Assembly (NCBI GenBank): GCA_030426085.1
Contig: JAUHYW010000055.1
Coordinates: 1 to 64,000, forward strand
Length of the DNA: 64,000 bases
Direction: 5' to 3'
Source: a bacterium
GTDB taxonomy: Bacteria > Myxococcota_A > Bradymonadia > UBA7976 > UBA1532
Shown here: one piece after another, positions 7,422-14,821 of the stretch
How positions within the stretch are numbered: the first letter of the stretch is position 1
Layout: each line of letters starts with the position of its first letter
Position numbers and translations under genes: made by a program
The notes under the pieces: generated by a model
Told to the model about the DNA's origin: nothing
What the model saw: the letters and a program-made list of their open reading frames with translations, nothing else
Database searches by the model: none

Positions 7422-8195
7422 TCACCGCGGCTGGATGTCGAGGCGGTGCTTCACCACCCGCACGTCGACCGGCGGGTCGCTCGGATCGAGCGCGTCCGGA
7501 TCGAGGCGTTCGAGGGTGGCGTCGGGCCCGATCACGATCAGCAGCGACACCGGGCCGGTGCGGTCGGGCAGCGCCTCGCCGACCGGGGCGTCGGCCCGCA
7601 GCGCGCCGCCGGGGGCCCCCTCGAAGTCGAGCTCGAGCGGGATGCGCCGGTCGCCGTCGACGACGAACGCCCGGGCGTCGACGATGGGCTGCACCGGGTT
7701 GGCCGGGCGCAGGATCCAGCGCAGGCGGGCGTCGGGGGTCACGACCCGGGCCGCCTCTTCGCTGCGGGTGGCCCGATCGCCCGAGGTGTCGACGAGCCGA
7801 TAGCTCGGCAGCGCGGGGCTCGACCCGCCGGGGCGCAGCACGATGAAGGCCAGGCCGGCGGCCAGCGCGAGGGGCGCGATGACGTAGACCGCCTTGCGCC
7901 AGCGGGCGGGGCGGATGATCCGGGCCAGCGGGCCGGCGACCTCATCGGCGCCGCCCGCGGAGGCGTGACCGGCGAGCGCGCCCAGGGCGCCGTCGAGCAG
8001 CGCGTCGTCGTCGGCGTCTTCGAATGGGCGGTAGCGCTCGAACCGCGCGGGGTCCTCCCGGGCGAGGGCCTCGGCCTCGGCCGCGCTCGCCCGGCCCTCG
8101 GCCAGCGCCTGCCACCGGGGGTCGGCCTCGCGGTCCGCGCGGGCGTGATCGGCCAGCGCCGAGGCGAGGGCGTCGTTCTCGTCGTCGTCTCTCAT
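7422..8195 (-). CDS. Anti-sigma-factor-like single-pass membrane protein
   Basis: 257 aa. About 100 acidic, Asp/Ala-rich cytoplasmic residues are followed by one transmembrane helix (about 102-120, AVYVIAPLALAAGLAFIVL) and a periplasmic part of about 137 residues rich in predicted beta strands. No zinc-binding HxxxCxxC of ZAS anti-sigma factors is present. The call rests on position, directly downstream of an ECF-type sigma gene, and on topology, so it is inference. GGAGG precedes the ATG at 8195. The 70-base gap to the sigma gene holds one copy of the shared 27-bp motif (8218-8244), so this gene probably has its own regulated promoter. Confidence 0.6.
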   Translation of the reverse strand: MRDDDENDALASALADHARADREADPRWQALAEGRASAAEAEALAREDPARFERYRPFEDADDDALLDGALGALAGHASAGGADEVAGPLARIIRPARWRKAVYVIAPLALAAGLAFIVLRPGGSSPALPSYRLVDTSGDRATRSEEAARVVTPDARLRWILRPANPVQPIVDARAFVVDGDRRIPLELDFEGAPGGALRADAPVGEALPDRTGPVSLLIVIGPDATLERLDPDALDPSDPPVDVRVVKHRLDIQPR

Positions 8196-8217
8196 GGGGC
8201 ACCTCCAACGCTCTCTG

Positions 8218-8244
8218 TCCGCGGCGGGCGCCGTCGATCTGACG
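8218..8244 (-). promoter_or_regulatory. Shared 27-bp motif, copy A (candidate ECF promoter)
   Basis: Read on the minus strand it is CGTCAGATCG, 7 bases, CCGCCGCGGA. It ends 22 bases before the anti-sigma-like ATG. It matches copy C at 25 of 27 positions and copy B at 22 of 27, with no gaps. The two 10-base blocks are invariant in all three copies while the 7-base spacer varies, as expected of a promoter or a bipartite operator. Confidence 0.7.
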
Positions 8245-8265
8245 GTCGACGCCGCGATCGGGCGC

Positions 8266-8919
8266 TCATCGGCCGATCTGGCCCGCCAGCCGCGTCAGCC
8301 GCCGCTTGAACCGGGCCCGCCAGGCGTAGACCGCGTCCCGGGTCATGCCCAGCTCCTCGGCGACGGCGTCGGCCGGGGCGCCGTCGAGGTACAGCCGCTC
8401 GAAGAGCAGCCAGCCCCGGGTGTCGAGCTCGGCCCGCAGCCGCTCGAGCAGCGCGTCGAGCTGGGCCCGGCTCTCGATGCGGGCGGTCGGCTCACCGGCC
8501 GGCGCCTGCCGCTCGAGCGCCGCGTCTTCGGTGGGATCATCGCTCCAGGGGGAGCGTTTCCCCGAGCGCAGGATCGAGGCCACCTGGTGCCGGGTGACCA
8601 TGCGCGCGAAGCCCCGCAGACCGCGGCCGGCCTCGGGGTTCCACCGGCGCAGGATGCGCCCGTCGTCGGCGAGCAGCGCCACGAAGACCTCCTGCACCAG
8701 ATCGAGGACCTCCTGGCGCACGTCCCGCCCCCGGCCCAGGCCCCGGCGGCGGTCGAGCGCGGCGGCGACCTCGCCGTGGATCGCCGGCCGGAGGTACACC
8801 ACCAGCGCCCGCATGGCGGCCCGGTCGCCGCTCAGCGCGTGGCGGATGTCGTCGGGGTGGGGGTCGTCGGGCAGCACGGCGCGCAGAATAGCAGACCGGC
8901 GGGCGGCGGGTGACCGCAT
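8266..8919 (-). CDS. ECF-type RNA polymerase sigma factor
   Basis: 217 aa from ATG 8919. The region-2 stretch includes VLDLVQEVFVALLADDGRILRRWNP and RGFARMVTRHQVASILR; the region-4 helix-turn-helix is at the C-terminus (LDGAPADAVAEELGMTRDAVYAWRARFKRRL). There is no region 1.1 or 3, so it is group IV. A GTG at 8877 (203 aa, starting LPDDPHPDDIRHAL) is an attractive alternative start: it removes a poorly family-like N-terminus and leaves 59 bases to the divergent CHAT gene, with a TATTCT-like box in between. It is followed by the membrane anti-sigma-like gene and faces the CHAT lipoprotein gene, suggesting all act in one envelope-stress circuit. Confidence 0.85.
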   Translation of the reverse strand: MRSPAARRSAILRAVLPDDPHPDDIRHALSGDRAAMRALVVYLRPAIHGEVAAALDRRRGLGRGRDVRQEVLDLVQEVFVALLADDGRILRRWNPEAGRGLRGFARMVTRHQVASILRSGKRSPWSDDPTEDAALERQAPAGEPTARIESRAQLDALLERLRAELDTRGWLLFERLYLDGAPADAVAEELGMTRDAVYAWRARFKRRLTRLAGQIGR

Positions 8920-8936
8920 GGGGTATACCGGAGCCC

Positions 8937-11561
8937 ATGCGCACCTGCCTGCTGCTCGCGCTGGCGCTCGCCGCCTGCCGCGCCCCGGACCCCCCGCCGC
9001 TGGACGCCGAGCTGCTCGGCTGCGGGGCCCGCTTCGACGACGGGCGCTGCGCGCGGCCGGCGGACGGGGCGCTGCGGGTGTTCGCGCCGGGGGACGGGCC
9101 CGATCCGACCGCGACGCTCGACGGGCGGCCGCTGAGCGTGAAGAGCGAGCGCGTGCCCGGCGGGGCGCTGGCGCGGCTCGCGGTGGATCGGGCGGGCGCG
9201 CTGCACATCGAGCGGGGCGGCGCGCGGGCCGTCTTCGACGTGATCCCGACCGAGCCGCCGGTCACCGGTGACCGGGCGGCGCTCGAAGCGGCCCTGGCCG
9301 ACGCGCCCGTCGCCCGCCGGGGCCCCCTCGCCTCCCGGCTGGCCCGGCTCGCGCTCCGGGCGGGCGACGCGGCGCGGATGCAGGCCCGCTTCGCCGAGGC
9401 CGAGGCGGCCCACCGGGCGGTCGGGCGGCGCTCGGCCATCCTGCGCGACCTCGAAGCCCGGGTCTTCGCCGCGCTGTACATCCACCCCCGCTACGCCGAG
9501 GCCCGGCGCCTGCTCGATCGGCACCGGGCGCTGGCCGACGACCGCCGGGCACGGGGCCTGGGGGCCTACTCGGCGGGGCTGCTGGCGTGGCAGACGGGCG
9601 ATCCGGCGGGGGCTGCGGCGGCGTTCGACCGGGCCCGGGGGCTGCTGGCGTCGCTGGGCGACGTGCGCGAGACGGTGGTGGCGGCCGAGATGGAGGCCGT
9701 CGTCCTGCGGGCGCTCGGCCGGGGCGAGCAGGCGTTGGCCCGGCTGGCGGCGCTGGGGGCGTCCCTGCCGGCCGACGCCACCTGTGATCGGGCCCGGCTC
9801 CAGCTCAACACCGGCTGGTTGCAGACGCTCGAGCGCAGCCGCCGGGGCGAAGGCGCCGACCCCCGCCCCGCCCTGCGCGCGGCCCACGCCGCCTTCGCCT
9901 CGGGGCCCTGCGCCGCCGAGGGCCCCCGGCGCACGGCGGCGCTGAACCTGGCCCTGGCCGCCCTCGACGCCGACGACCCTCCCGCCGCTCGCCGCTGGCT
10001 CGAGACGCTGCCCGCCGACGACGCCCTGGCCCGCTGGCGGCTGGACGTCGAGGGGCGGCTGGCGCTGGCGGCCGGCGATCGGGCCACCGCCGCCGCCCGC
10101 TTCACGCGGCTGGCCCGGCTGGCGGACGATCTCTCCCCCGAGGTGGCGTGGCGGGCGGCGGTCGGGCTGGGCGAAGCCCGGCTGGCGGGGGGCGACGCCG
10201 AGGGCGCGCTGGCCGCGTGGCGCCGGGCCGAGGCGCTGCTCGACGCCGAGGCGCTGCGGCTGCCGCTGGACCGCGATCGGGCCCGGTTCGTGATCGACCG
10301 CGACCGCAGCGCCCGGCGGCTGGTGGCGCTGCTGGTGCAGCTCGACCGCCCGGCCGAGGCCCTGTGCGCCGCCCGGCTGGCCCGGGGGCGGGCGCTGGCC
10401 GGGGTCGCGCTGCGCGATCGCATCACCGGGCTCGACGCCGAGGCCCGCGCCCGGTGGGAGGCCGCGCTGGCCCGGTGGCGCGCGGCCCGGCGGGATCACG
10501 AGGCGGCGGCGGCCGACGACTGGACCCTGGACGACGCGGCGCTGGCCCGGGCCCGCGCCGACCGGGCCGCGTCCGCCCGCGCCGTGCGCCGGGCGCTGAC
10601 CGAGGCGCTGGCGGTGGTCGAGCGGGCCGGCGACCGCCCGGGGTGCCCGTCGCTGCGGCCGCCCGAATCCGAAGAAGCCATCCTGGCCTGGTTCCCCGCC
10701 GAGCTGCCCGGGGGCGGGCCCCGTCTGATCGGCTTCGCGGCGACCGCCGCGGGGGTCCGGGCGGCGACGCTGCCCGCCGGGTCGGAGACGCCGACGGCGC
10801 TGCTGGCCCCCTTCGTGCCCGAGATCACCGCCCACCGCCGGCTGCGGCTCATCGTCGGCGGCGGCTTGGAGCGGCTCGATCTGCACGCCGCCCCGTGGGA
10901 GACGCCGACCGGTGAGGACGCCCCGCTGGGCGAGGCCCGGGACGTGGTGTGGGCCCTGGATCTGCCCCGGCGCCCGCCCCGCCCGGCGCCCATCCGGCGG
11001 GCGCCGGCCCTGATCGTGGCCGACCCCGAGCGCGATCTGCCCGCCGCCCGGACCGAGGCCGAGGCCGCCGGGCGGGTCCTGCGCAAGTCGGGGTGGACGG
11101 TGACCGCCCTGATCGGCGAGGCGGCGACCGGTGAGGCGGTCCGGACCGGGCTGGGCGCGGCCGAGCTGTTGCATTACGCGGGGCACGGCGAGGCCCGAAG
11201 CGACGACCCGTTCGCCGCGCGGCTGCCGCTGGCCGGGGGCGGCCGGCTGTCCATCGGCGATCTGCTGGCGCTGGACCGCGGCCCCCGCTGGGCGGTCCTG
11301 ACCGGCTGCCGCACGGGCTTCGTCGACCCCGGCGCGGCCGCCGGCGGCCTGACCCTGGCCCACGGCTTCCTGCTGGCCGGCGCCGAGGGGGTGCTGGCGA
11401 CGACGGCGGTGGTCGACGACGGGCTGGCGGGGTCGGTGGGGGCGACGGTGGCGCTGCACCTCGGCCCGGCGCCGGGGGCCGATCTGGCGCAGGCAGCCCG
11501 GGGCGCGCTGATGAAGCTCGATCTGCCGGGCCGGGCCGCGTTCCGGGTGTGGGTGCCGTGA
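8937..11561 (+). CDS. TPR-CHAT caspase-like protease lipoprotein
   Basis: 874 aa. MRTCLLLALALAAC is a lipoprotein signal with lipobox LALAAC, so the protein is predicted to act outside the cytoplasm. The middle (about 110-560) is helical and TPR-like, with Ala-rich repeats. The C-terminal CHAT domain carries the caspase-type dyad: His750 in HYAGHGE and Cys791 in LTGCRTG, both in canonical context. CHAT proteins are clan CD cysteine peptidases (separase/caspase relatives) often controlled by TPR domains. A lipidated CHAT protein beside a sigma factor and a subtilisin-like lipoprotein suggests a proteolytic system outside the inner membrane. It converges on the S8 gene with 9 bases between stops. 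Confidence 0.87.
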   Translation: MRTCLLLALALAACRAPDPPPLDAELLGCGARFDDGRCARPADGALRVFAPGDGPDPTATLDGRPLSVKSERVPGGALARLAVDRAGALHIERGGARAVFDVIPTEPPVTGDRAALEAALADAPVARRGPLASRLARLALRAGDAARMQARFAEAEAAHRAVGRRSAILRDLEARVFAALYIHPRYAEARRLLDRHRALADDRRARGLGAYSAGLLAWQTGDPAGAAAAFDRARGLLASLGDVRETVVAAEMEAVVLRALGRGEQALARLAALGASLPADATCDRARLQLNTGWLQTLERSRRGEGADPRPALRAAHAAFASGPCAAEGPRRTAALNLALAALDADDPPAARRWLETLPADDALARWRLDVEGRLALAAGDRATAAARFTRLARLADDLSPEVAWRAAVGLGEARLAGGDAEGALAAWRRAEALLDAEALRLPLDRDRARFVIDRDRSARRLVALLVQLDRPAEALCAARLARGRALAGVALRDRITGLDAEARARWEAALARWRAARRDHEAAAADDWTLDDAALARARADRAASARAVRRALTEALAVVERAGDRPGCPSLRPPESEEAILAWFPAELPGGGPRLIGFAATAAGVRAATLPAGSETPTALLAPFVPEITAHRRLRLIVGGGLERLDLHAAPWETPTGEDAPLGEARDVVWALDLPRRPPRPAPIRRAPALIVADPERDLPAARTEAEAAGRVLRKSGWTVTALIGEAATGEAVRTGLGAAELLHYAGHGEARSDDPFAARLPLAGGGRLSIGDLLALDRGPRWAVLTGCRTGFVDPGAAAGGLTLAHGFLLAGAEGVLATTAVVDDGLAGSVGATVALHLGPAPGADLAQAARGALMKLDLPGRAAFRVWVP

Positions 11562-11570
11562 GCGTGCGCC

Positions 11571-13352
11571 TCACCGCAGCGCGATGGGGTTGCCCTTCGA
11601 CAGCCGGCCGGTCTTGCCCTGCACGGTGAACGTGACCCAGGCCGACTTCACCCCCCCGGGCAGGCTCAGCCCCCCCACCTTGGCGCTCTGACCGCCGTAG
11701 AGCGTGCCCAGCCGGCCCGAGAGGTCGTAATGCTTGCGGCCGGCGCCGGTGTCGACGGTCAGGACCGGATCGGACAGCGCCGGCATGCGCCCGTCGATGG
11801 AGAGCACCAGCGTGCCGCTGCCGCGGTGCAGGCTGCACGAGGGGCAGCCGGGCCACTCCGGCTGAGGGGCGACGGCGGGCCACGGGGCGGCGGGCGGCTC
11901 GACGAAGGGGGGAGGGCAGGCCCCGGCGCCGCCGGCGCAGCCGTCGTCGTGCCCGCTCACCGGCGCGAAGGTGGGGCCGTCGCCCGGCGGCAGGTCGAGG
12001 CGGGCGCCGTCGAGGTCGGTCCGATCGAACGCCGGGGGCGCGCCGCACGCGAGGCCGGGCGCCACCCCGGCCACCGCGCCGCAGACCGCCAGCCGCCGCA
12101 CCGGGGCGCAGTGGGCCGGGCCGCACAGCTCGGCGTCGCCCAGCTCGGCGCTCAGGTCGACCCCGCCGGCGTAGACCGCGTCGGCCACCGCGCCCGGGTC
12201 GCGGCCGGGGTCGTGGTTCCACACCGCCGCCGCCGCGCCGCTGGCCGAGGCTGCCGCCGCCGAGGTGCCGCTGAAGACGTGCCACCCGCCGCGCTGCACC
12301 GCCGCGTGCTGAGCCGGCGCCACCAGCCGGGGCCGGCTGCCCGCCCGCCCGTTGACCAGCGGCCCGTCGGCCAGATCGACCCCGCCCACCGCCTCGACCA
12401 GCCCCCGGCCCACGGTGGCCGCCCCCGGGCCGCCGAAGCCCAGCCCGGCGCACGCCCCGCCGTCGGGCGCCGCGAGCCCGGCCCAGCCGGCGGGCAGCAG
12501 CGCGCCGGTCTCCCCCGCGCCGATGGGGTCGTTGCCCGCCGCGGCCACCACCAGCGCCCCGCCGCACACCGCGTACACCAGCGCCGCGTGGGCCGCCCGC
12601 ACCGGCCCGGCGACGCCCGAGGCCCCCGCCCCGAGCAGGCTCAGGTGGTTCGGGGGCAGCGCGCCGTCGTCCATCGGCGTCACCGGGGCCCAGCCCAGGC
12701 TCAGGTTGATGACCAGCGGGCCCCCGATCGCGGTCGCCTCGACGATCGCCGTCGCCAGCTCGCCGGGGCTGCCGAAGTGGCCCCCGCCGTGCCAGTCCAG
12801 CGTGCCGTCGCCCACCCGGGGCAGCGCGACCCGGGGCTCCACCGCGGCGCCGGGGGCCGCCCGCTCGACGAGGGCCGCCATCGCCGGGCCGTGCGGCGAG
12901 CGCGATCCGGCCGGGCCGGCGGTGTCGAGCACGGCGACGGTCGCCGGCCCGGGGGTGAAGCCCACCGGGTCGAGGCGGGCGGCGTGGGCCGCAGCCCAGA
13001 TCGGTCCGCTGTCGTCGTCGAGGGCCCCCTGCGGCGCGACCACCCCGCAGTCGGGGGCCGGGTCCACCAGCGTCGGCGCGCCTCGCAGGTCGGCCGGCGC
13101 GCCGCCGGTGTAGCGGCAGAAGCGGGCCAGCGGGCCGCCGTGCCCCGGGAAGAGCGCGGCGCCGGTCCAGCCGATGACGTCGGGGCACGGGCCGGGGTCG
13201 GTCTTGACCGCGATCCAGGTGGGCTCGGCGTCGTCGCAGGCGCCGGCGGGGGTGAGCAGGGCCGCCGGCGCCCGGCCGATGGAGGGCGCCGGGCCGTCGG
13301 CGCAGCCGAAGGCGAGCAGGGCGGGCAGGGCGAGCAGCAGCGGGCGGTTCAT
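11571..13352 (-). CDS. Subtilisin-like (S8) serine protease lipoprotein
   Basis: 593 aa. The signal peptide ends in the lipobox LAFGC. The S8 triad is visible: Asp143 (VAVLDTA), His154 (SPHGPAMAAL) and Ser364 (FSGTSAAAASASGAAAAVW), plus the oxyanion Asn in VVAAAGNDP. The domain is compact and Ala/Gly-rich. A C-terminal beta-rich segment of about 100 aa starts at GCPSCSLHRGSGTL and may be a targeting or interaction module. A copy of the shared 27-bp motif lies 41 bases upstream of the ATG, tying expression to the sigma/CHAT locus. By family it is an extracytoplasmic endopeptidase; its target and any link to CHAT maturation are not known. Confidence 0.88.
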   Translation of the reverse strand: MNRPLLLALPALLAFGCADGPAPSIGRAPAALLTPAGACDDAEPTWIAVKTDPGPCPDVIGWTGAALFPGHGGPLARFCRYTGGAPADLRGAPTLVDPAPDCGVVAPQGALDDDSGPIWAAAHAARLDPVGFTPGPATVAVLDTAGPAGSRSPHGPAMAALVERAAPGAAVEPRVALPRVGDGTLDWHGGGHFGSPGELATAIVEATAIGGPLVINLSLGWAPVTPMDDGALPPNHLSLLGAGASGVAGPVRAAHAALVYAVCGGALVVAAAGNDPIGAGETGALLPAGWAGLAAPDGGACAGLGFGGPGAATVGRGLVEAVGGVDLADGPLVNGRAGSRPRLVAPAQHAAVQRGGWHVFSGTSAAAASASGAAAAVWNHDPGRDPGAVADAVYAGGVDLSAELGDAELCGPAHCAPVRRLAVCGAVAGVAPGLACGAPPAFDRTDLDGARLDLPPGDGPTFAPVSGHDDGCAGGAGACPPPFVEPPAAPWPAVAPQPEWPGCPSCSLHRGSGTLVLSIDGRMPALSDPVLTVDTGAGRKHYDLSGRLGTLYGGQSAKVGGLSLPGGVKSAWVTFTVQGKTGRLSKGNPIALR

Positions 13353-13393
13353 CGGGACCTCCGAGAGCGGTGGACGGGGCGCTCACCCCTCAC

Positions 13394-13420
13394 TCCGCGG
13401 CGGCGTCGCTCGATCTGACG
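13394..13420 (-). promoter_or_regulatory. Shared 27-bp motif, copy B, upstream of the S8 protease
   Basis: Same two invariant blocks as copies A and C (CGTCAGATCG, 7 bases, CCGCCGCGGA on the minus strand), ending 41 bases before the protease ATG. An A+T-rich stretch, rare in this genome, lies directly upstream at 13424-13450, as in an UP element. Confidence 0.7.
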
Positions 13421-13463
13421 CACGTTATCGGAAAATTCCCAGAATGCTGGAATCGGTCGCCGC

Positions 13464-14183
13464 TCAGCCGCCCTCGCAGACGTCGATCCCGCAGGCCGGC
13501 ACGCCGGGGGGCGCGTCCTCGAGGGCGTCGAGCGGCAGCTCGTCGGGCAGCTCTTCGACGTGCAGGTCGCCGACGACGTCCTCGACCCACACCCACTCGC
13601 CGTCGGGGGTCACCAGCTCGACCGGCCAGATGCCGACCGGGATCGGCCCGATGACGACGCCGTCGCACGGCCCCTCGTCGGTGAACTCACCGGTCATGTG
13701 GCAGCTCTCGGGCCGGGTCATCACGAACAGGTCGGCGCAGTAGCCGGCGCAGTGCCCCGCGCCGGGGTCGTACTCATAGCCCTCGGGGCAGATGCACTCG
13801 CGCTCGCACGTCAGCGTGCCGATGATGTGATCCGGATCGCACCACTTGCGGCGGGTGTCGGTGTGACCCACCTTGCTGTACGCCGCCAGCCGGTGGGTGC
13901 CCGGGCCGAGCTTCTCGCACAGCGCGGCGGGGTCGTCGCGCAGCTCGGCCTCGAGGTCGGCGGCGGCGTGGGCGCAGCGGGTCGAGCAGTCGAGCTCCTT
14001 GCCGCTCTCGAAGCGGCTGTACGAGGCGATGGCGCCCAGGTCGTGGGCGGTGTCCCCCCCGTCCTTGGGGCAGGCGTTGGCGATCTCGCACCAGCAGTGC
14101 CCCCGGGCCTCGGCCGGGGTCGAGGCGAGCAGCAGGATGAGGCAGGCGAGGTACGGCAGGGCGACGAGCAGCGAGGGGCGCAT
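13464..14183 (-). CDS. Secreted Cys-rich protein, paralogue 2 (long form)
   Basis: 239 aa with a Sec signal peptide (MRPSLLVALPYLACLILLLASTPAEA). The mature first ~120 residues match the neighbouring upstream gene residue by residue: CxCE, ACPKD, ASYSRFE, CSTRC, CEKLGPGTH, AYSKVGHTDTRRKWCD, IGTLTCERECICPEGYEYD. A unique acidic tail of about 90 residues follows with further Cys (ends CGIDVCEGG). The start at 14183 is set by GGGAG and the signal peptide. It lies 72 bases downstream of its paralogue and is probably co-transcribed. I do not recognise the family; the spacing of 10 or more conserved Cys suggests a disulfide-stabilised extracellular domain. Confidence 0.75.
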   Translation of the reverse strand: MRPSLLVALPYLACLILLLASTPAEARGHCWCEIANACPKDGGDTAHDLGAIASYSRFESGKELDCSTRCAHAAADLEAELRDDPAALCEKLGPGTHRLAAYSKVGHTDTRRKWCDPDHIIGTLTCERECICPEGYEYDPGAGHCAGYCADLFVMTRPESCHMTGEFTDEGPCDGVVIGPIPVGIWPVELVTPDGEWVWVEDVVGDLHVEELPDELPLDALEDAPPGVPACGIDVCEGG

Positions 14184-14255
14184 GAGATGACTCCCGAGAG
14201 AAGAGATGGACGGAGCGGCGGACGGGGCGATGTCATGTGGCATGGGCGACACGGC

Positions 14256-14756
14256 TCACTCCCAGTGGGACTGCATCGCGCAGCCGAGGCTGAACGCGGC
14301 CACCGCCCGGCCCCCGCAGGTGCCGAGGCACAGCTTGGAGTCCTCGTCGTAGGTGTAGTCATAGGGGCACTCGCAGACCATCTCGCAGACGAGGGTGCCG
14401 ATGGTCTGGTCGCCGTCGCACCAGTTGTTGCGGGTGTCGCGGCGGCCGACCCGGCTGTAGGCCTCGACCTCGTGGCGCCCGACGCCGAGCTTGTCGCACC
14501 ACTGGTCCTTGGCCGCCCGGATCGACGCGGTCTCGGCGTAGGCCCGGTCGCCGCAGGCGTCCGAGCAGCGGGGCTGCTTGTGCCGCTCGAGCTCGCCGTA
14601 CGAGGCGACGCTGCCGAAGTCGACGAGGGTCTTGTGGCTCTTGTCCTTGGGGCAGCCGACGGACACCTCGCACAGGCAGGGCTTGGCGAGGGCGGGGGCG
14701 GCGAAGAGCAGCACGCCGGCGAGGCCGACGAACGCAGCGATGGCGCGGGGAGACAT
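14256..14756 (-). CDS. Secreted Cys-rich protein, paralogue 1 (short form)
   Basis: 166 aa. A Sec signal peptide (ending in PALA) precedes a domain shared with the next gene downstream: CLCEVSVGCPKD, DFGSVASYGELE, CSDAC, CDKLGVGRHEVEAYSRVG, DTRNNWCDGDQTIGTLVCEMVCECP. It lacks the acidic tail of paralogue 2, so a duplication with divergence of the 3' end is likely. Copy C of the 27-bp motif lies 65 bases upstream, linking it to the sigma/CHAT/S8 locus. No function is known; a secreted substrate, inhibitor or toxin-like effector are options that sequence alone cannot separate. The divergent cysM gene starts 210 bases away. Confidence 0.75.
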   Translation of the reverse strand: MSPRAIAAFVGLAGVLLFAAPALAKPCLCEVSVGCPKDKSHKTLVDFGSVASYGELERHKQPRCSDACGDRAYAETASIRAAKDQWCDKLGVGRHEVEAYSRVGRRDTRNNWCDGDQTIGTLVCEMVCECPYDYTYDEDSKLCLGTCGGRAVAAFSLGCAMQSHWE

Positions 14757-14821
14757 GGCATCCTCCGATGGCATATGGGTGCCTGATGTGCGAGCCGTCC
14801 TCGACTCGCTTCGGTCATGTC

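Follow-up and report, generated by a model that had tools for sequence, protein, structure and literature searches.

The stretch of DNA analyzed here, called the window, is the 64,000 nucleotides of bacterial contig JAUHYW010000055.1 (assembly GCA_030426085.1), and at positions 7,422 to 13,352 it carries one copy of a four-gene unit, in which an extracytoplasmic function (ECF) sigma factor, a membrane anti-sigma protein, a TPR-CHAT peptidase and an S8 subtilase were all confirmed at the places where they had been noticed from the sequence alone. Across Myxococcota and Acidobacteriota the same four parts are repeatedly found together, in no fewer than 15 gene orders, which is no accident, their active sites are intact, their topology puts the proteases on the outer side of the inner membrane, and natural fusions join CHAT to the anti-sigma protein and S8 to a sigma factor in other genomes. 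We consider, with a probability of about 60%, that the module is a protease-gated ECF sigma factor, in which proteolysis would take place outside the inner membrane, with CHAT and S8 acting upstream and clipping the anti-sigma protein. By cutting proteins, such a unit could make gene expression respond to an event outside the inner membrane.

In the window's own genome (10.1 Mb in 178 contigs, with 13 S8 genes and 59 sigma hits), six S8 genes had a CHAT gene no more than 5 kb away in comparison to 0.29 expected (P ~2e-7), and 11 of the sigma hits were found within the same distance of CHAT in comparison to 1.3 expected (P ~7e-8). Among 46 CHAT-family loci collected with CHAT as the seed from seven genomes of the window's family, the sigma factor, the anti-sigma protein and S8 were all present within five genes in 21, and at least one partner was present in 39. 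When GTDB species genomes were scanned using just the sigma alignment, 16 real relatives were obtained (L099-L114; L099 and L114 are from genomes already in the CHAT-seeded set), from records named as Myxococcales, Polyangiaceae, Nannocystaceae, Deltaproteobacteria, Thermoanaerobaculum and Acidobacteria; the anti-sigma gene adjoined the sigma gene in 15 of these loci, CHAT was nearby in 13 and S8 in 8, and two of the three loci lacking CHAT were ended by a contig edge. The search seeded with the anti-sigma protein covered 284 genomes of the phylum and gave matches in 25 genomes, and in the 24 loci outside the window's family the sigma factor was present in 23 and CHAT in 18. After pooling and removal of redundancy there were 80 CHAT loci, of which 36 were complete, in 15 gene orders, 21 had sigma and anti-sigma genes with no S8, and 12 had no partner at all. 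The pooled counts are biased to the sigma factor by the seeds, so that the fair count for sigma is that of the CHAT-seeded set and the fair counts for CHAT and S8 are those of the sigma- and anti-sigma-seeded sets. Since the set is kept through 15 gene orders, selection holds it together while the order drifts, and the neighbourhood is conserved in other genomes, where the sequence-only reading had proposed to look for it.

The sigma gene (8269..8919, minus strand, stop to 8266) encodes up to 217 amino acids, its start being ambiguous between an ATG at 8919 and a GTG at 8877. The protein scored 54 bits against TIGR02937 (cut-off 43), its profile matched solved ECF sigma factors with a best E of 8e-15, and regions 2 and 4 were matched in Pfam, weakly, which places it among the ECF sigma factors. 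About 17 of the 77 module sigma factors carry a short hydrophobic N-terminal segment directly before region 2, with a normal coding signal; among them are L044:9181, L076:13348, L079:13523 (minus strand), L080:638, L085:12909, L092:11780, L094:5745 (minus strand) and L095:3700 (minus strand). The L079 gene has no alternative start within its first 45 codons, and the L094 gene has a strong ribosome site. From their predicted N-termini, these sigma factors look like membrane-anchored proteins which would need to be cut free.

The anti-sigma gene (7425..8195, minus strand, stop to 7422) encodes a single-pass protein of 257 amino acids, as judged from its AlphaFold2 (AF2) model, its homologues and its sigma neighbour. 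The model, with a predicted local distance difference test score (pLDDT) of 82.5, consists of an inner helical part (residues 1-80), a membrane helix (residues 100-119, at 7839..7898, minus strand), which is also indicated by hydropathy and keeps its position in alignments A2 and A6, and an outer beta-sandwich (residues 130-255), most of which was modelled at pLDDT above 90. The window protein has no Pfam match on its own and lacks the HxxxCxxC zinc ligands, while the helices and the membrane helix are present. Because same-position relatives carry these ligands (L076, L080, L090 and L095) or zf-HC2 (3 of 22), because the family profile matched the RslA and ChrR structures in the right region, weakly (E of 0.004 and 0.04-0.05), and because of the modelled helices and membrane helix, we accept the window protein as an anti-sigma factor that has lost its zinc ligands. 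In the fold search, all matches were generic Ig-like sandwiches that covered little of the query, and no function was read from them. Sigma/anti-sigma pairs were also seen without CHAT, beside efflux-transporter-like genes, at L172:9177-10735 and L195:9660-11101, and at these places they may be coupled to other sensors.

The TPR-CHAT gene (8937..11558, plus strand) encodes 874 amino acids and belongs to the CHAT peptidase family, with 74 bits against PF12770 (cut-off 24). The predicted lipoprotein is composed of a signal (residues 1-13) followed by the lipid-bearing Cys14, an Ig-like domain (~20-105), TPR helices (~113-565), a pseudo-caspase part (~580-673) and the catalytic CHAT domain (~690-874), and its N-terminus, MRTCLLLALALAAC, fits the PROSITE lipobox. 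The closest structural matches of its AF2 model (pLDDT 84, predicted template modelling score 0.76) were DdvA of Myxococcus xanthus, Csx29 and separase. The catalytic pair His750 (11184..11186) and Cys791 (11307..11309), which had been described as intact, is invariant in the 22-member alignment, and all 81 members of the wider collection of relatives have retained the His, while 80 of the 81 have retained the Cys. The window genome has 23 CHAT hits, at least 22 of them genes above the cut-off, and several lack a module partner; no CHAT relative was found in the plasmid records searched.

The subtilase gene (11574..13352, minus strand) encodes 593 amino acids and is assigned to family S8 by PF00082 (32 bits, cut-off 21.8) and by profile matches to mycosins and subtilisins. 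It is a predicted lipoprotein (Cys17) whose N-terminus, MNRPLLLALPALLAFGC, fits the PROSITE lipobox with an unusual Phe at -2. The residues Asp143 (12924-12926), His154 (12891-12893), oxyanion Asn274 and Ser364 (12261-12263) are invariant in the alignment, and the triad and oxyanion Asn were kept in 45 of 45 relatives, which agrees with the earlier description of the enzyme as complete. Its C-terminal part (11574..11867, minus strand) combines a PQPxxxxCxxC motif (residues 496-506) with a beta domain; the motif is family-specific, with invariant columns in alignment A4 and with Gln and both Cys kept in 43 of 43 relatives, and no model in the Pfam or NCBIfam scans covers this part. A genome search also placed an S8 gene for L046 at G000:C4:15302. 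An A/T run followed after 10-20 bp by a GTCAG[AG] box lies ~50-60 bp before the S8 start (window ~13400-13440, minus strand), and the box was also found upstream of S8 in L047, L061, L063 and L071. It occurred before 5 of 40 S8 genes in comparison to 13 of 820 other genes (P ~0.001, for a motif picked post hoc), and the genes it precedes include unrelated ones, some of them lipoprotein genes; it is a possible promoter, and a lead only.

The two proteases had been proposed to act outside the inner membrane on the basis of their lipoprotein signals. In a strict in-frame lipobox test of complete N-termini, 35 of 76 CHAT relatives and 17 of 44 S8 relatives were positive, in comparison to 0 of 77 sigma factors and 0 of 80 anti-sigma proteins as controls, and most of the negative CHAT and S8 relatives have a plain hydrophobic N-terminus. 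Export is therefore supported for both proteases, mostly in the form of lipoproteins; neither non-lipidated cytoplasmic N-termini nor a lack of conserved synteny was found. Natural fusions provide a second line of evidence. The single open reading frame (ORF) L108:10615-14091 (1159 amino acids) contains the anti-sigma helices, one membrane helix, an outer domain, TPR and CHAT, and L127:1486-5070 (1195 amino acids; the same place as L202) has the same fused plan; the two come from one Thermoanaerobaculia genome, are 31% identical, and each has a sigma gene on one side and an S8 gene on the other. The part that binds the sigma factor has to be inside, so that with a single membrane helix in between, CHAT in these fusions is outside. 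In the L178 ORF at 10291-14454 (minus strand), a signal, cysteine-rich repeats, S8 with its triad, the PQP motif and an Asp/Thr-rich linker are followed, in the same frame, by a membrane helix, Arg-Lys and an ECF sigma factor, so arranged that the sigma factor is likely inside and the protease outside, as in the CHAT fusions. Judged by their predicted topology, the fusions are better evidence of localization than the lipobox, and they also tie the proteases to the sigma switch, which strengthens the earlier link between a sigma factor with a membrane partner and the proteases.

With active sites that are almost invariant, the parts would work as enzymes. In the mechanism we propose, the sigma factor would be held at the inner membrane by the anti-sigma protein, whose beta-sandwich domain would be displayed outside, and the TPR-CHAT lipoprotein, as the likely sensor, would sense an outside state or ligand through its Ig-like and TPR parts, which would switch on its caspase-like center. 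CHAT, alone or through the subtilase, would then make the site-1 cut in the outer domain, an M50 (RseP-type) protease would complete the cut within the membrane, and the freed sigma factor would go to RNA polymerase. With a membrane-spanning inhibitor and with proteases located outside, the natural reading is that CHAT or S8 makes the site-1 cut and that an M50 protease, for which the window genome gave several hits, acts next; which cut precedes which, what the signal is, the step at site 2 and which genes are targeted are all inferred. A cascade triggered by envelope damage or by an attacker, as the sequence-only reading had it, is plausible as a cascade, if unproven. A two-protease relay is a more tentative form of the mechanism, in which the CHAT lipoprotein would activate the subtilase, or the reverse, and the subtilase would make the site-1 cut, with one branch where a membrane-anchored sigma factor, even one fused to the subtilase, would be cut free. 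If true, this would be a bacterial caspase-to-subtilase relay reporting periplasmic events.

The co-variation of the parts was calculated from pairwise distances across the 36 complete modules. The raw distance correlations were 0.83 for CHAT-S8, 0.72 for CHAT-anti-sigma and 0.65 for anti-sigma-sigma (Mantel P ~5e-4 each). The partial correlations were 0.70, 0.43 and 0.36 for the same pairs and near zero for the other pairs, which suggests a chain S8-CHAT-anti-sigma-sigma. The raw correlations are accounted for by the common descent of entire modules, and the co-variation is therefore support, not proof. Several results weigh against a protease-gated switch of this kind. The chain was weaker when only the last 230 residues of CHAT were used (0.51, 0.25 and 0.43), and CHAT is the longest protein and hence has the least noisy distances. 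The window anti-sigma has lost the ligands that mark its family, and the L178 fusion is from one contig of a metagenome-assembled genome, where a stop codon may have been lost by assembly error and a GTG close to the junction might serve as the sigma factor's own start, which leaves the fusion likely, not certain. In addition, some sigma/anti-sigma pairs stand next to other genes without CHAT, and the 21 loci with all parts except S8 indicate that the subtilase is not essential for the switch in all cases.

The pairs without CHAT are also what would be expected if the sigma/anti-sigma pair sensed alone and the freed sigma factor turned on both exported proteases as outputs, which would digest or remodel the envelope or outside proteins. 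The box shared by the S8 upstream regions of the window and four other loci would agree with this, and so would the divergent region between sigma and CHAT. The anti-sigma, sigma and S8 genes are on the minus strand and CHAT is on the plus strand, so that the locus is not one operon. The divergent region (8878..8936), read directly from the sequence with a GGAG ribosome site upstream of CHAT, leaves only 18 or 60 bp between the two starts, depending on which sigma start is used, and is short enough to permit shared control. An output, however, would not need the fusion to the anti-sigma protein seen in two loci, outputs are usually scattered in the genome whereas here single proteases are kept in the locus across 15 rearrangements, and the box also precedes unrelated genes; we therefore regard this explanation as rather unlikely. 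The same fusions, together with the DdvA relatives L207 and L208, in which CHAT is likewise physically part of the anti-sigma protein, would fit a ligand-binding or scaffold role of CHAT in the anti-sigma complex, with the sigma factor freed by a change of shape and no cutting, and with the subtilase as a separate helper. A scaffold would be free to lose the His/Cys pair, but 80-81 of 81 relatives, and DdvA as well, have retained it, which makes a purely structural role improbable.

The sequence-only reading also connected the locus to attack and cell death. If it were such a system, the proteases would be effectors directed at an attacker or at the cell itself, with the sigma factor doing no more than timing their production, and there is precedent in that CHAT proteases are known in CRISPR systems and that a CBASS-CRISPR defence island is under the control of DdvS, the sigma factor paired with the related protein DdvA (PMC12288465). 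The results gave this connection no support: no PADLOC defence family matched the window proteins, neither the four of the module nor those neighbours that were tested, and the L108 fusion gave a weak BovA hit only. The flanking genes, as read from their sequences, resemble housekeeping genes (peptide deformylase, MFS transporter, succinate dehydrogenase), and many parallel copies per genome suit separate sensors more than a death switch, so that a role in conflict or death seems very unlikely. No RNA family was found in the window between 5000 and 16500. Beside the subtilase are tandem related secreted cysteine-rich proteins at 13467-14183 and ~14256-14760 (both minus strand), the first without a Pfam match; that first protein, although such proteins had been named as possible substrates, was rejected as a part of the module since it has no relative in other loci.

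The caspase-like CHAT proteases of bacteria are familiar chiefly from CRISPR defence, as its cytoplasmic arms, and the sequence-only reading took CHAT-TPR proteins to be mostly cytoplasmic. This overlooks DdvA, whose record names it as a transmembrane anti-sigma factor with a TPR-CHAT part (PDB 8rot, 8rw5), and whose partner DdvS is active once DdvA is inactivated (PMC4374960). The DdvS/DdvA system resembles the window module in having an ECF sigma factor beside a transmembrane anti-sigma linked to TPR-CHAT, with His and Cys kept; DdvA is the nearest solved structure to the window CHAT model, and the window shares with it a CHAT outside the inner membrane with the sigma gene adjoining. Unlike in DdvA, two distinct genes of the window encode the anti-sigma and CHAT, and it is the L108 and L127 fusions that share the one-protein plan; the window CHAT is moreover a predicted lipoprotein and has an Ig-like domain of its own, a beta-sandwich forms the outer part of the anti-sigma, and S8 is added. 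In genome G134, L207:795-3716 and L208:1878-4724 (both minus strand) are DdvA-like proteins with a zinc-binding anti-sigma (ZAS) domain, a helix, TPR and CHAT, each overlapping its own sigma gene in a two-gene system; no S8 was found in their flanks, and their sigma factors score 29-38 bits in comparison to ~130-250 for most module sigma factors.

In the CASP/Craspase system of type III-E CRISPR, the TPR-CHAT protease Csx29 cuts Csx30, the inhibitor of CASP-sigma (PMC10028731), and a TPR-CHAT protease, a sigma inhibitor and an ECF sigma factor are thus again in one locus. Csx29, however, is cytoplasmic, is activated through Cas7-11 and target RNA and comes without a subtilase, whereas the window CHAT is exported; no Cas7-11 or CRISPR genes were recognized among the gene calls of the 64-kb window, and the module proteins gave no PADLOC match. 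The ECF54 group of Actinobacteria has CHAT and a subtilase beside the ECF sigma factor, with a carboxypeptidase in the context, and is described as having no anti-sigma (PMC8999054); the likeness is one of gene context, and the membrane anti-sigma is conserved here (15 of 16 sigma-seeded loci). In type III CRISPR, CalpL cuts CalpT and so releases an ECF sigma factor, CalpS (PMC11417357). A protease cutting an anti-sigma is what CalpL has in common with our proposal, while CalpL differs in being Lon-type and cytoplasmic and in having cyclic oligoadenylate as its activator.

Regulated intramembrane proteolysis of anti-sigma factors is familiar from RseA, with DegS and RseP, and from RsiW. The window module resembles these in its single-pass anti-sigma, whose outer domain might receive a site-1 cut, and in the M50 proteases of the genome; the cutting of RseA by DegS is cited in PMC10028731. 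No DegS- or PrsW-type site-1 protease was seen in the locus, and CHAT and S8 would replace it. The pieces have thus been seen before, and we found no description of a split, lipidated, subtilase-containing module in the open-access literature. If exported CHAT, subtilase and sigma factor are widespread in many copies, periplasmic protease relays would be a general means of sensing in large-genome bacteria, and since the sensor protease, inhibitor and sigma factor are split and separately mutable in the window, what DdvA-like anti-sigma factors sense becomes testable. In general, the window module is a variant of the theme of CHAT-controlled sigma factors, and it is real, conserved and multi-copy.

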